In this document: one piece after another, positions 2,780 to 9,180 of the stretch
How the letters are laid out: each line of letters begins with the position of its first letter
How positions within the stretch are numbered: position 1 is the first letter of the stretch
The notes under the pieces: model-generated
What the model was told of the DNA's origin: nothing
What the model saw: the letters and a program-made list of their open reading frames with translations, nothing else
Database searches by the model: none
Translations under genes and position numbers: made by a program
Source: Dunaliella salina
Lineage: Eukaryota > Chlorophyta > Chlorophyceae > Chlamydomonadales > Dunaliellaceae
Assembly: GCA_002284615.2 (NCBI GenBank)
Contig: MU069655.1
Location: 194,833-212,632, forward strand
DNA: 17,800 nucleotides
Direction of reading: 5' to 3'

Positions 2780-3161
2780 AAAACTCTCCAAGGCAGACAC
2801 CGCAACAACAGAGACACATTACATATCTATTCATTGGGGTTGCTGTAATAGTTACAATCCGCACACGATTGATCCCATCTGCAAACTCGGCCTATCTAAA
2901 GAAAGTGCCCCAAAAACTGCAACCAAACTTCGCTATCATGCTGTCAAGGCCCAAACAAAAATGAATGGCATTAACAGGCTATTCATTCAACAACCCTCCC
3001 AACACCCACAGCATATTCTACCCTCTCAAACCTTGGAAGACAGGGCTTTGAAAACCCTTATGAAACCATGGTTGGCCAATGTACAGCAGCCGAAATTGGA
3101 CACAGAATTGCGGAACAAAATCACTTTTATACTGACCCGACTAATCCACAAACAGATATAA
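2780..3161 (+). pseudogene. Unrecognised N-terminal segment of the retroelement ORF
   Basis: The frame that contains the ATG at 2961 is open from about 2763 to 3161. It encodes a basic, leucine-rich, probably helical sequence (for example TLMKPWLANV and ITFILTRLIHKQ) before a TAA. It sits directly upstream of the methyltransferase segment in the same orientation, so I infer it belongs to the same ancestral protein. I do not recognise a family; reverse-transcriptase catalytic motifs such as FADD are absent. Confidence 0.4.
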
Positions 3162-3205
3162 AACCTACAGGCACATGCAAATATTGGCTGCACGACGTTG
3201 ACCTC

Positions 3206-4293
3206 GTGAAGTACACGGATGAGCAACCCCCTCATCCAGCATCACCTTACACAAGATCCCACAGCCGACACAAGATCCCACAGCCGTTCCCCTCCTACTC
3301 CATCCCCCCTCATTCTCCCAGAAATTTATACTGCGCACATGGCTTGCACCTACAATACGCAAGGCAAACGTGTTGGTATGGTATCCCCAAACCGCTTCCA
3401 AATCTTCTACAGGGCTTCTTGTGGGGGGCCAAGCTGGCTAGCATGCACGAGGAAACATCACCAGCTCCTGGCAGCTTTGCTACTGAGCTGCAGAGGCTCC
3501 TTTCCTGCAAATCCATGCTTGAAAGAAAGTACTCTAGCAAAAAGACCAAAGACTCTTTTTCACGAGCCCTTCCAACTCACATCCATACTGCCCTCCCAAT
3601 ATGGGCTTTGGTAACCCAAGAAAAAATGGCCTCCCCACTAGACCACAATCCACAATACCAGAATTATTGAGGTGCGGACTCCCGAGCCGAGACACTCTTT
3701 TTGGTGCCATGCAAAACGCCTTCTCATCCAAATTCTCAGGCTTCTCAGTCTGCCATCCCATTTATGACGAGGGTGTCATGACCCAAGCTTTGCAACATGC
3801 CATGTACTCTGGCATTCTCAACACAGAATCCACTGCTACATTCATGTTTTTTCCGGCTTGGAATAAGAACATGATATCCAACCCCTACTCCAAACTTTTC
3901 AATGCCTACCCCCACCTCTGTTACGAACTTGGAACCATACCTCACGAAAAACTAAGTTACAGCGCCCCTGAATCCTGCCCTAACCAAGAGGTGCCTTTGC
4001 CTAAGCATACCTGGGACCTTCGTATCTTTGCTGTTTGGAACAGTGCAGCTTTAATCCATCTCAACAACCATAACAAAGACTGGCTACAAGGCCTGAAAGG
4101 AGATTTGAAAGAAACCACAGAGTGGAAGCTGAAGAACATCAGCAGCCACCCTGTCCTAAATCCCATGCATGCTCACATGCCAGGTTTCAATAAAGTGAAA
4201 CGCCTTCCATTTGACAAACAACACGTCTCCAAGCACCGTAGAAATCCACACATGAGTAATCAAGATACAAACTTGGTGCCCAGCCAATCCTAG
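3206..4293 (+). pseudogene. PCIF1/CAPAM-like adenine-N6 methyltransferase domain of the retroelement
   Basis: The sequence is split over two frames (shift near 3660-3690). It shows the ordered landmarks of PCIF1-type cap-adenosine N6-methyltransferases. These are an ASPL block (EKMASPLD, about 3625), a D-x2-FG block (RDTLFGAM), an F-x-G strand (SSKFSGFSV) leading into the catalytic loop at 3754-3765, an alternating hydrophobic strand with P-x-W (FMFFPAWNKN), and a late strand FAVWNSAALIHLNN. The catalytic NPP(F/Y) tetrad reads HPIY here, so this copy is probably inactive or divergent. In other eukaryotes the family methylates the first transcribed adenosine of capped mRNA using SAM. Its place next to RNase H in a retroelement is unusual. 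Family assignment is from remembered motifs, not a search. Confidence 0.6.
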
Positions 4294-4304
4294 CTCTCAA
4301 AGTT

Positions 4305-4745
4305 GTTGATTGGAGGAAATGGGCGAACACAGATGGCAGCTGCCTTGTCCATACAGTAAGCAAGAAATTGGAGCAGGCATCGACTGCCCGTCCACTTACA
4401 GCAAGAAGTTTGTAGAACCAAACGGTGCTGAGATTATAAAAACCCATCACTTGAGCTGAAATAGCAGCAATTGCTGCTGCTATCATCACCAAATATGTAG
4501 ATATTGCATCAGGCAGCCTCACCTCTTACAATCAAATACGCTAACAGCTTCTCTATTCTGAAAACATCTGAGGCATATCCAAGGAGACGTCCTTGAAATG
4601 ATTTCAACGCTCATTAGATACTTCCATACCAAAATTCGAATTTACAAAGTGAAGTCCCATGCTGGCATCGCTGGAAATGAATGTGCAGATGCTATTGCAA
4701 AACATCAGGCAAAGCAAGCCCAGAGCTGCGTGGCAGACACCGAGA
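4305..4745 (+). pseudogene. RNase H domain of the retroelement (frameshifted)
   Basis: The domain is reassembled over three frames. It has a TDGS motif carrying the first catalytic aspartate (4326-4337), then QEIGAG and VEPNGAEI, then AEIAAIAAAI with the catalytic glutamate (about 4453). At the third site ASGS stands where the family has a T-D-S motif, so that aspartate is lost. The C-terminal KVKSHAGIAGNECADAIAK block is intact (about 4648-4704). This is the LINE-type RNase H signature and would remove RNA from the cDNA hybrid. Frameshifts near 4357, 4437 and 4560 plus the lost aspartate make it non-functional. Confidence 0.82.
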
Positions 4746-5107
4746 TCCATGGTGCAGATCCTGGTGGCAATCCATTTATAGATATTCCTGGATATCCAAG
4801 GAGGAAGGAGTGCATGCTGCCGGCACATCTTCAGGTCCACTACCCACACACAAGCTCACCTATCTCCCCGATCGTCAAGATGCTCTCAAATCCCACATGC
4901 AATCGAAACACAAGCTTGGATATGCCAATGCCAAAACAGGTTACTACTCTTACTATCAAAACTGATTACCGCAAGTAGATAAAAAGAAATCAGCAACATT
5001 GATTAATGCCTTCAGAAATATGCCCAACATGCCTGTACCCATGAAGCATACCATCCTGCAGTACCGCACAGGCATCCTCTACAACCAAATCACGCAATAT
5101 TTTTACA
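4746..5107 (+). pseudogene. Linker between RNase H and zinc knuckle in the retroelement ORF
   Basis: The segment continues mainly in one frame (4681-4965, then past a stop). It has THKLTYLPDRQDALKSHMQ and then MPVPMKHTILQYRTGILYNQ just before a one-base shift into the zinc-knuckle frame. The last block is repeated in the copy at 8148 (LPVKMKRNTI, then TGTLFHQK), so it is a conserved part of the element protein. It resembles the region that precedes the C-x2-C knuckle in LINE proteins. No catalytic function is assigned. Confidence 0.55.
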
Positions 5108-5929
5108 AGGTCAACTGATCCATCTTGCCCCCTTCCAGGCTGCCATCATTTGGACAGCGCACTACACATGCTCTTAGGCTGCCAAAATCATATCATCTCA
5201 AACATGAAAACCGAATGCCATGACAGTGCAGGCAGAATGATTACAAAAGCCCTCAGCAAATGCCCTGTAGAGGCAGGCCTAGTATACACAGACATAGGAA
5301 GCAATTTTTAGCTTGCTCAACACAACCTCCAAATCCCCACACACGCCTCAAACAGAAGTGTACCTGCTTACTTCTTCCCTCGTAACCTTCCAGAGAGGAA
5401 AAGACTCAACTCCAGTCGACCAGATGCTGTTTTGATCACCCCTTTTAATGCCAATCATACTTCTAACGATGTTTTTCCTAACCATTCCCACCACGCTTTG
5501 CGCAGCTCTTCACGGAGGGCCACCAGAACTNGCCGCATGAGGCAACCCCATGAACTTTATGCCATTGAACGCCATGTGCACCCAATAGAAATCAAGTCCT
5601 GTGAGAACAAAAGGCCAGAGCATCAGTTGAACGTGGCAAAGCAGCAGCATGCGAACCTTTGTAAACTTATTATTGCTAAAGCTGTTACGATTCACCCTAT
5701 TCTCCGGGGTGTAGGTGGAACCATTTACACTGGGCATACCCTGAAGCAATTCAAACAACTAGGATTGGATCACCAGCGTGCCACGAAGCTTGCTCGACAA
5801 CTTCATGCCCATTCTGTTCAATATGCCCACAAACTAACCTCCACACGCCGTGCTATTGAAAACAAGAATGCTTCCCACAGCCAAGATCTAGAGCCAGGTG
5901 CTTCTAGTAACCCTCTAGATCCTCATTAG
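5108..5929 (+). pseudogene. CCHC zinc knuckle and PD-(D/E)XK restriction-like endonuclease, C-terminus of retroelement ORF
   Basis: One frame runs from 5108 to the TAG at 5927-5929, broken only by a TAG at 5309. It starts with CPLPGC, then SALHMLLGC, giving a C-x4-C-x8-H-x4-C knuckle. The nuclease signature follows: RPDAVLI with the aspartate at 5423-5425, and PIEIKSCE with glutamate at 5588 and lysine at 5594. RPEHQL, a GVGGTIY turn, LGLDHQRATKLA and TRRAIEN come next, ending NPLDPH. R2-type LINEs carry the same knuckle plus nuclease and use it to nick the target. The D-to-E spacing (55 residues) is longer than usual. The copy at 8140 keeps the same architecture and almost the same spacing, which supports homology. 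The ambiguous base at 5531 lies inside. Confidence 0.75.
5531..5531. other. Ambiguous base (N)
   Basis: A single undetermined base inside the endonuclease-domain pseudogene; it affects one codon between the catalytic D and E. Confidence 1.
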
Positions 5930-6060
5930 CATTCTCTTTTCCATACTTTGTGGTGAAGGGGGCTCAGGCTCTTTTTTGAGCCAATGTGTTTCCTTTTCCT
6001 TAATTGATGTAGGGAGAGTCTCTCTGCCTACTTAGGTATTCTTCTTATTTTCTTATTCTC
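5930..6060 (+). repeat. Retroelement 3' UTR and pyrimidine-rich tail
   Basis: After the stop come TTGTGGTGAAGGGG, GAGCCAATGTG, CCTTAATTGATGTAGGGAGA and a T/C-rich tract ending near 6060. The same landmarks in the same order occur at 6440-6554 (minus) and 16580-16690 (plus), and partly at 2378-2540 (minus) and 9059-9140 (plus). Here the 3' end is pyrimidine-rich, not poly(A). Confidence 0.75.
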
Positions 6061-6310
6061 TCAACCCAAGCATGGGGGTCTGGGGGAGGAGGCTTCAGGA
6101 TGGACTGCTTACAGGAGAGCAAGGTGTGCTACTGGAAGGATGGCCGACAACCCACCAGACCCACATTAGCTTCGGCTGCCCATTGCCTGCCCTTTTTGGT
6201 GGGACTCCCTGTTGGTGCCAGCGCTGACAGTTGGGTCTTTCCTTATTTAGGCCGGAGGTGACCAGCGCAGACTTTTACTTTTTACTTGGTAGGTAAGGTA
6301 CAAGAAACCA
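6061..6310 (+). repeat. Dispersed repeat family G, copy 1
   Basis: This matches 10700-10915. Shared blocks are GGACTGCTTACAGGAGAGCA, GGATGGCCGACAAC, GCGCTGACAGTTGGGTCTTT and CTTGGTAGGT. It encodes AYRRARCATGRMADNPPDPH followed by TAG at 6170-6172, and the other copy preserves AYRK, RC and GRMADN in frame. The conservation is therefore at the protein level, suggesting the 3' end of another element ORF. A partial inverted match lies at 6326-6400. Confidence 0.65.
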
Positions 6311-6439
6311 AGCAAATTTGGTGCCAGCGGTTTGTCAGCCATCCGTCCTGTGTGTCTTGCTCTCTTGGGAAAAGCCCAAGACAAGATGATCCCGCACCTT
6401 CCCCCTGGTCCCCATGCTTGAGTTGCATGGCATGAAATT

Positions 6440-6554
6440 CAGTAAAATAAAAAAAAGGAAGAAAATATCTAAAGGCAAGGAAGCTCTCCCTACATCAATT
6501 AAAGAAGATGAGACACATTGGCTTAAAAGGGCCGTGAACTCCCTCCACCAAAAG
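6440..6554 (-). mobile_element. Retroelement 3' tail, inverted copy
   Basis: The reverse complement carries TTTGGTGGAGGGAGTTCA, AAGCCAATGTGTC, TTTAATTGATGTAGGGAGAG and a T/C-rich tail, parallel to 5947-6060. No coding sequence of the element remains upstream of it. It faces the large element tail to tail, forming an imperfect inverted repeat. Confidence 0.75.
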
Positions 6555-6752
6555 ATTTGAGACTGGAAAGGCTACTGGGCATATGGAGGGTTACCAAGAA
6601 GCACCAGGCTAGGCTCTTGAACCTTGCTGTGAGAGGTCTCCTTTTTTACCAATCGCGCGTCTAGTGGTAACAGGTTTATGGGCATACTGAACTGAATGAG
6701 CATGAAGTTTTTGGGCAAGGTGGTCTGGATCTACTAGTGATTTTTTGAATCG
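6555..6752. other. No feature recognised
   Basis: Unique-looking sequence between the inverted retroelement tail and the protease-like remnant. I see no supported gene or repeat. Confidence 0.5.
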
Positions 6753-7879: not shown

Positions 7880-8130
7880 ACAAAATCTGTTGTTACAGTG
7901 GATACATCTGTCTCTGAGATTCACGTGTTTTAGGTGGTGGGTGGAGTCTCTGCCTTCAAGGGGTAGACGTAGACCTATCATGCCATTAGGACGACTCAGT
8001 TGCGTATGTCTGGTGGCTTTCCAGATTGGAACACCTGGTGTGGAACGTTTTGTGGGATTTCAGCAGAACTCTTTTTTTCCTGCATGCAAGCTAGTGGGTG
8101 TCCAGCCTAGAATTTTACAACTCCCACCTT
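7880..8130 (+). repeat. Dispersed repeat family F, copy 2 (uninterrupted)
   Basis: This is homologous to minus-strand 2710-2240. It has TCTGTCTCTGAGATTCA, GGTGGAGTCTCTGCCTTCA, CATGCCATTAGGA and GGTGGCTTTCCAGATTGGAA in unbroken order. It represents the pre-insertion state of the interrupted copy. Its end (GGTGTCCAGCCTAGAA) also matches the end of family G copy 2 at about 10887. The reading frame 7890-8162 is open, but I recognise no domain. Confidence 0.7.
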
Positions 8131-8139
8131 CTGGACCCT

Positions 8140-9180
8140 GCCAACGCTTCCTGTCAAAATGAAACGAAACACCATTAACAAGTGTACAGGCACTCTCTTC
8201 CACCAGAAGCGTGCTGTGCGCATTAAAAATTCCACCTGCTTACAATGCCCCCTATGTGCCTGACAGTGCCCTTCACATTCTATCAGGATGCAAATACTCC
8301 ATCATGTCGAATATGGTAACTGAGAGCCACAAAATAGCCAGCAGTACCCTCCTCAAAGATATCAGTAAAGGCTCTCTCAGGGTGGCTTTGCCCCTTTGGA
8401 CAGTGTCAGAGCAGATCGTCTTGCAAGCAATTGCTTTACAGGACCTCCAGATTCCTGAGCACTCAACAAACAGAAACCTCCCTAAACGTTTTCCTTCGTC
8501 GTTTCCCTGACAAAGAAAGAATCACTTCTAGCCGCCCTGATGTAATATTTGTTGCTCTCATGACAAAAGGGTCAAGGACCCATTCCCGGTATCAATTAAA
8601 TAATTGCAGGGGGGCGCGGGGGAAATAGGGAGCACTCAGCGCCAGCCACAGCCACTTCCCCTACTTCCAAGGTCCGTCACCCAAGACAGCTCCTCCCAGA
8701 ACAGAGGCACATCCATCTAGAGAAAGTCAAATACTGTGAAGACACCCGGCCCAAAAATCAGCTTGAGGCCTCCAAGCAGCAACACTCCGGTTTGTGTCGC
8801 CATCTTTCAAGAGCCTCTGCACAAGTCACCCTTCACAGCATTTCATATGGTGTGGGTATAGTCGTCTACAGCCCCCATACTTTGGAGCCACTTAAAGAGC
8901 TTGGGCTTGACACACACAAGCCCACCAAAGTTGCTCTGAGGCTTCATGCTCATTCTGTCGAATTTGCTAGTACCAGACGAGCTCTGGAAAAGACTTTTAA
9001 TTCTCATCAACAAGGTCGGGCACGGGCTACTGCAAGTAACCCTCCTGATCCCCACTGACTTCTTTTCTCATCTTCAAAAGGTGAAGGGGATACACAGTGC
9101 CGTGGCCCTAGGTATCCTCTTTTCCTTAATTGATGTGCGCAAGCAATGAAAACATGGGTCCCTAGCAGTCGATATGGGGG
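8140..9180 (+). mobile_element. Second, 5'-truncated copy of the RNase H/endonuclease retroelement
   Basis: It starts within the block before the zinc knuckle (LPVKMKRNTI) and continues through knuckle, nuclease and C-terminal peptide into a 3' UTR with TTCCTTAATTGATGT at about 9122. Everything upstream of this point in the family is missing, consistent with 5' truncation. Downstream of the UTR, CAATGAAAACATGGGTCC resembles the sequence that follows the tails at 6061 and 6440. Confidence 0.75.
8148..9058 (+). pseudogene. Decayed zinc-knuckle/endonuclease C-terminus of the retroelement, copy 2
   Basis: Frame segments are LPVKMKRNTI to CPLC (stop at about 8250), then DSALHILSGC to about 8480, then SSRPDVIFVA (aspartate at 8539), then from about 8642 the frame that ends at 9058. 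The last part has HLEKVKYCEDTRP, YGVGIVVY, LGLDTHKPTKVA, STRRALEK and NPPDPH. The residue matching the catalytic glutamate is lysine (codon 8723), with the following lysine kept. Three frameshifts and the lost glutamate make it inactive. Comparison with 5108-5929 shows which residues of the family are conserved. Confidence 0.75.

Follow-up and report, generated by a model that had tools for sequence, protein, structure and literature searches.

A PCIF1-type methyltransferase domain in a multi-copy, dual-endonuclease retrotransposon of Dunaliella salina

The subject of this study is a retrotransposon copy in a 17,800-nucleotide stretch of the genome of the green alga Dunaliella salina (assembly GCA_002284615.2, contig MU069655.1, positions 194,833 to 212,632 of the forward strand), which is referred to as the window and whose coordinates are used throughout. 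A segment of this copy is homologous to PCIF1 (CAPAM), the adenosine N6-methyltransferase that modifies mRNA caps, and the element to which it belongs has the domain order apurinic/apyrimidinic-type endonuclease (APE), reverse transcriptase (RT), PHD-like finger, PCIF1-like domain, RNase H, zinc knuckle and restriction-like endonuclease (RLE); we regard the homology and the architecture together as practically certain. On balance, we also favour the further reading of this segment as a methyltransferase domain of PCIF1 type, built into a multi-copy non-long-terminal-repeat (non-LTR) retrotransposon, where it probably grips RNA, with catalysis weak or lost in the lineage of the window, which carries His at the position of the catalytic Asn of PCIF1.

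An initial annotation, made from the letters of the window, had proposed ordered PCIF1 motifs from position 3206 onwards in one decayed open reading frame (ORF) with RNase H, followed by a restriction-like endonuclease. The motifs were all located, with RNase H and the endonuclease after them, whereas the domain begins 60 bases earlier and the element copy is longer on both sides:

2995..6059, plus strand: 5'-truncated retrotransposon copy, the part common to other genomic copies (blastn)
3146..4122, plus strand: PCIF1-like methyltransferase-fold domain (tblastn with the natural L009 fragment P0064)
3629..3640, plus strand: ASPL motif, frame 2
3754..3765, plus strand: HPIY, at the position of the catalytic NPPF of PCIF1, frame 1; register from HMMER (NPEY/NPPF) and the family alignment
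3850..3861: FPAW motif, frame 1
4030..4047, plus strand: AVWNSA strand, towards the domain's end, frame 1
4290..4786, plus strand: RNase H domain, frames 3 and 2 (tblastn with the RNase H of L025)
5102..5926, plus strand: zinc knuckle (C..C..H..C) and C-terminal restriction-like endonuclease (RPD ... EIK, E-x-K), 81.7% identical to the C-terminus of L025 (tblastn)
6009..6031, plus strand: 3'-end hairpin GTAGGGAGAG..CTCTGCCTAC; in most copies a TTTTC-rich tail comes after it

The copy in the window is spread over several frames and is not one ORF: the PCIF1-like domain maps by tblastn to frame 2 at 3146-3700 and to frame 1 at 3685-4122, and frame shifts lie at about 3685-3700, close to 4290, somewhere within 4355-4562, and close to 4789 and 5088. 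The single frame with RNase H that had been proposed is found, extended to the restriction-like endonuclease, in three other genomic copies, L025, L019 and L028.

The match of the window's own frame to PF12237, the Pfam family of PCIF1, is weak (E 0.064, 13.3 bits, against a curated cut-off of 31.1 bits). Natural, unmended frames of L019 (40.1 bits), L028 (40.0 bits), L021 (39.4 bits) and L025 (35.2 bits) exceed the cut-off, these being four of the six copy proteins scanned, of which the other two are RT-side frames lacking the region; L014 lies just above it at 31.4 bits, and in all five the RNase H stands in the same frame as the PF12237 match. Homology searches yielded 10, 27 and 35 proteins, and the precomputed labels of the set of 35 name PF12237 in 34, RNase H in 28, RT in 17, PHD in six and APE in four. 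Ten of the 14 members of one alignment (A2) match PF12237 at E <= 0.1, five of its members (P0005-P0009) starting inside the domain, while among nine more distant relatives P0018 (50.5 bits) and P0011 (31.8 bits) pass the cut-off, P0014 (28.2 bits) and P0015 (24.7 bits) fall below it and five gave no match at E <= 0.01.

Searching all PDB sequences with a profile of the domain only, built from 12 relatives (ten Asn-type and two His-type, after the first residue of the tetrad), retrieved zebrafish PCIF1 at E 2.9e-12 and human PCIF1 at E 4e-11, and the next chain followed at 0.045. A profile of a further alignment (A3) matched 153 PDB chains, of which the 60 shown all matched through the RNase H part. 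In the HMMER alignment NPEY is placed on NPPF and ASPL on the ASPL of PCIF1; each letter of ASPL is kept in 59-61 of the 61-62 rows of copies and relatives, at least 90% of the family rows keep ASPL, D..FG, LP and the last N, all of which align to PCIF1, and the domain is conserved among relatives down to about 27-30% identity. The predicted fold of P0064 matches PCIF1 specifically rather than any Rossmann methyltransferase. The 317-residue model aligns to residues 417-668 of human PCIF1 only, and no match to the N-terminal cap-binding helical part of PCIF1 was recognised in its alignment. The PCIF1 identity first recognised by motif order is thus borne out by natural frames over the PF12237 cut-off, by the PDB profile match and by the predicted fold.

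The domain order was assembled from overlapping copies, the APE coming from one copy, and in relatives APE to RNase H lie in one ORF. The APE is found in L013 (360-1238; PF03372, E 1.8e-9) upstream of the RT, and is taken to belong to the element because four full-length relatives have an APE and a pre-RT stretch that align to L013 in unchanged order. The RT, which the initial annotation had proposed to look for upstream, is present in L013 and L015; in L013 it occupies an 898-residue frame whose last part is the beginning of the finger (PF16744 at 0.039, weak alone). L021 joins the finger (PF16744, E 2.8e-5, below the cut-off), the PCIF1-like domain and RNase H in one 890-residue frame, L025 joins the PCIF1-like domain, RNase H and the endonuclease in one frame of 951 residues, and L019 and L028 link the same three domains likewise. 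No single open frame spanning the whole order was found in the 20 copies fetched from the genome. Among the relatives, APE, RT, PCIF1-like domain and RNase H share one ORF in P0030 (2478 residues), P0063 (2450 residues) and P0045 (2439 residues), and P0043 (2694 residues) carries APE, RT, finger and PCIF1-like domain and stops before RNase H. PF00628 marks the finger in only some relatives (P0017 and six of 35 in one search, with P0043 just below the cut-off), and a simple C/H pattern matched one of the nine relatives tried (P0011), so the finger is not uniform.

Compared with solved structures, the RT has its best match in R2 (9nl3, E 8.5e-24), ahead of L1 ORF2p (E 5.7e-17); 8gh6, which we take to be an R2 protein as well, stands behind L1 at E 1.7e-13. 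A C-terminal profile of eight relatives matched the R2 chain 9nl3 at E 1.7e-8 overall, with 0.0077 for the knuckle and 0.027 for the endonuclease, and one of its eight rows, P0063, also has an APE. The initial annotation had spoken of a LINE-type (long interspersed nuclear element) element; the element is not a plain LINE, since it has both endonuclease types and an RT closer to one R2 protein than to L1. As a separate observation, residues 1-490 or so of P0043 form two repeats that resemble, by eye, a cysteine-protease fold with C..H motifs, and no Pfam match was found there.

Searched at the DNA level with positions 3206-5929, the host assembly (285 Mb in 1403 contigs) gave at least 49 match rows, a lower bound, as scoring covered only 40 of the 4326 first-look candidates; most rows other than the window's own are 86-90% identical. 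Twenty copies were fetched from these rows, and all 20 keep the PCIF1-like region, which is included in the probe used to pick them. In blastn comparisons with the window, 14 of the 20 begin their main shared stretch at 2991-3002, and most end it at about 6043-6065. The fetched copies have a common 3' end, and the sequence shared with at least one other copy reaches upstream to differing extents, 891 to 5862 bases when measured from a fixed point, which is how target-primed reverse transcription with 5' truncation leaves its copies. The RNase H profile PF00075 falls under its cut-off of 25.8 bits in the window (4562-4975; E 2.7e-4, 21.5 bits) and reaches E 1e-14 in other copies. The 3' hairpin folds at -12.9 kcal/mol with a z-score of only -1.11 and so is unexceptional by itself, and in three of four copies tested it had no clear extra stability over shuffled sequence. 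A 709-base tandem duplication of 99.9% identity in L015 (2919-4334) may be recent or an assembly artefact.

Two D. salina proteins resemble the query over short parts, P0010 (82% identity over 17% of the query) and P0027 (77% over 12%). P0010, a predicted gene model, ends in a fragment of the linker between the element's PCIF1-like and RNase H domains, which points to a copy swept into the model. P0017 is labelled as from Haematococcus lacustris, and P0009, P0013, P0016 and P0024 bear the EukProt label of the stramenopile Pelagomonas calceolata, as a result of either spread beyond green algae or contamination.

The catalytic NPPF tetrad of PCIF1 is absent from the family of the window. All 20 fetched copies have His at position 1 (HPIY in 18, HPIH in one and HPMY in one), with Ile or Met, and in no case Pro, at position 3; the restoration of NPP(F/Y) in other copies, for which the initial annotation had suggested a search, did not appear, and a working cap-adenosine methyltransferase in the lineage of the window is for this reason doubtful. 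Of 63 relatives, 57 could be aligned and six failed to align; among the 49 that cover the tetrad, 30 have Asn at position 1 (NPEY in 27), 14 have His and five have another residue, and none has NPPF. A maximum-likelihood tree of 58 rows (the window, L012 and P0019 being left out as too short) was rooted at its midpoint only, and in it a branch with support 98/83 separates the full set of 23 His rows from all remaining rows; the trait requires one change, against 18.3 for shuffled labels, and long branches leave the placement of P0017, P0022, P0061 and P0014 unsure. Since PCIF1 itself has Asn, a single Asn-to-His switch would be the simplest reading. Five positions past the catalytic site, 11 of the 14 His-type proteins have Asp or Glu, and 22 of the 30 Asn-type proteins have Asp. 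The acidic residue of PCIF1 at this place, Glu563 (in zebrafish numbering, as we judge from a five-residue offset), is reported to contact the cap ribose.

A non-LTR retrotransposon has to identify its own RNA and preserve it whole, and the way in which this is achieved at the 5' end is poorly understood. Beside RT and RNase H, the PCIF1-like domain probably grips the element's own RNA in its 5' part, and in the His lineage of the window methyl transfer is predicted to have weakened or disappeared because the catalytic Asn position holds His; in the Asn lineages, mostly with NPEY, adenine N6 methylation would more probably be retained, on the 5' end of the element RNA or on an RNA/cDNA hybrid. 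This division of roles, with RNA holding beside RT and RNase H and methyl transfer likelier in the Asn lineage, we judge to have even chances of being right; RNA binding, action in cis on the template and impaired catalysis are all predictions from sequence. A more elaborate version, to which we give only tentative credence, is that a dual-endonuclease clade carries a cap-type RNA adenine methyltransferase, active in the NPEY lineages and marking the 5' end of its own RNA in cis, which through the single Asn-to-His switch might have become, in the lineage of the window, a cap or RNA clamp selecting full-length template for reverse transcription. With a widespread family in which a PCIF1-type domain adjoins RNase H and RT, the writing or reading of a cap-adjacent mark on an element's own RNA would become testable, and there would be a deep branch of PCIF1 that is mobile and apart from cellular genes, in which the active site varies in a natural series (NPPF, NPEY, HPPY, HPIY).

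Several observations weigh against the RNA-gripping, catalytically impaired domain that we favour. PCIF1 was not retrieved from PDB by phmmer with L014 or by the A2 profile of the window's lineage, which is without Asn-type relatives, and P0018 alone found it only at E 0.11; the first AlphaFold2 model, the one to take in upstream parts, reached a mean predicted local distance difference test score (pLDDT) of only 40.4. The APE was seen in one of the 20 fetched copies (L013), outside the part common to copies. That the domain binds RNA, the cap and S-adenosylmethionine is something we infer. The cap contacts Arg239 and Arg269 of PCIF1 are reported to lie in the helical domain (PMC11550742), and with a model covering 417-668 only, cap recognition by the same pocket is unsupported. 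His is never lost on its side of the tree (23 of 23 rows), and 13 of the 14 His-type relatives keep Pro at position 2 and 13 of 14 an aromatic residue at position 4, so that the kept His, Pro and aromatic residue would equally fit a changed but working active site.

That last point leads to the rival of a working adenine N6-methyltransferase in the lineage of the window too, in which His or another residue replaces Asn and the element marks its own RNA near the 5' end, or an RNA/cDNA hybrid, for stability or host recognition. The rest of the domain is kept, His is constant on its side of the tree and Asn persists in 30 of the 49 relatives; the ratio of nonsynonymous to synonymous substitution rates (dN/dS) is below 1, at 0.24-0.46 for the window against nine copies (173 codons) and 0.18 to 0.96 among the nine, one near-identical pair apart, although these values combine the effect of selection before insertion, in the source lineage, with that of neutral decay afterwards; this constraint also counts for the RNA-gripping reading. 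PCIF1 is also described as preferring single-stranded RNA, with RNA/DNA hybrids used less (PMC11550742). However, the invariant His at position 1 and the missing Pro at position 3 of the fetched copies speak against it, as do PCIF1 mutants, N553A and F556G being reported with lowered activity and substitutions at N553 and F556 with reduced or no activity in two reviews (PMC11550742, PMC10544176), and we hold this rival to be improbable, if worth keeping in view. We think it less probable still that the domain and the PHD-like finger act together on DNA or chromatin, methylating or reading not RNA but the target DNA or newly made cDNA, as might be suggested by the finger directly upstream in the same frame of L021, by PF00628 in some relatives and by the methyltransferases published in DIRS and LINE elements (PMC5890265). 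A passive remnant without function is very unlikely: the tetrad is altered in the family of the window and variable at position 3, and copies have decayed to differing degrees, but conservation reaches down to about 27-30% identity, dN/dS stays below 1 and the domain is present in every fetched copy, subject to the probe noted above. Least credible is a generic resemblance to any Rossmann methyltransferase, or chance motifs beside an unrelated RNase H. The window copy alone does fall under the Pfam cut-off; the results obtained contradict this idea, in that profile searches with copies and relatives do match PCIF1, the PDB profile and the fold comparison rule out a generic Rossmann match, and one frame shared with RNase H in several copies and relatives rules out chance adjacency.

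Compared with PCIF1/CAPAM (PF12237; PDB 6irv-6is0), the domain shares the fold and the ordered ASPL, D..FG, tetrad at the NPPF position, P-x-W and last N-bearing strand, whereas it sits in a retrotransposon protein and has HPIY here and NPEY in 27 of 49 relatives in place of NPPF. The WW domain with which PCIF1 binds the phosphorylated tail of RNA polymerase II was not found in P0030, P0043 or P0063 (Pfam, E <= 0.05) or in the copy frames scanned. R2, to our knowledge, is without APE, RNase H or a methyltransferase domain; it resembles the element in its RT and in its C-terminal zinc knuckle and RLE, but differs in lacking these three. The hallmark of Dualen/RandI elements is the presence of both an APE and a PD-(D/E)xK-like endonuclease (PMC3636483, PMC4640811), and Dualen elements have been reported from a range of Chlamydomonas relatives (PMC8226300). 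Compared by description, our element likewise has APE and RLE together with RNase H, and would differ in its PHD-like finger and PCIF1-like domain.

Retrotransposons with captured methyltransferases are known, namely DIRS elements with Dam-like adenine methyltransferases and LINE and DIRS elements (SymbioLINE/SymbioDIRS) with cytosine methyltransferases (PMC5890265); their enzymes are Dam-like or C5-cytosine and not PCIF1, and DIRS use a tyrosine recombinase. A Dam-like enzyme was rejected for the present segment, which did not qualify as Dam-type and for which domain scan and fold point elsewhere. In jumbo phages, too, a mobile or viral genome encodes a PCIF1-clade domain, there as much smaller PCIF1-like adenine methylases, and the available part of that report mentions no retroelement (PMC7824862). 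Titles and the beginnings of abstracts gave no literature match for a PCIF1 domain in a retroelement, which does not establish its absence from print. As read from the sequences, the element is a retrotransposon with two endonucleases that has captured a domain of PCIF1 type.

Elsewhere in the window, a diverged second copy of the 3' part (knuckle and endonuclease) of the same element family lies at 8126-9055 on the plus strand, with pieces 46-61% identical to P0002/P0006 and 33-56% to L025. A short 3'-end copy of the family lies in inverse orientation at 6438-6719 on the minus strand, where an inverted repeat pairs 5974-6064 with 6438-6528 and minus-strand matches to the endonuclease end fall at 6588-6719. 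On the minus strand at 1154-1957, a 267-residue ORF with a P-loop-like GAPGAGKRSL motif is, by eye, possibly a host GTPase-like gene.
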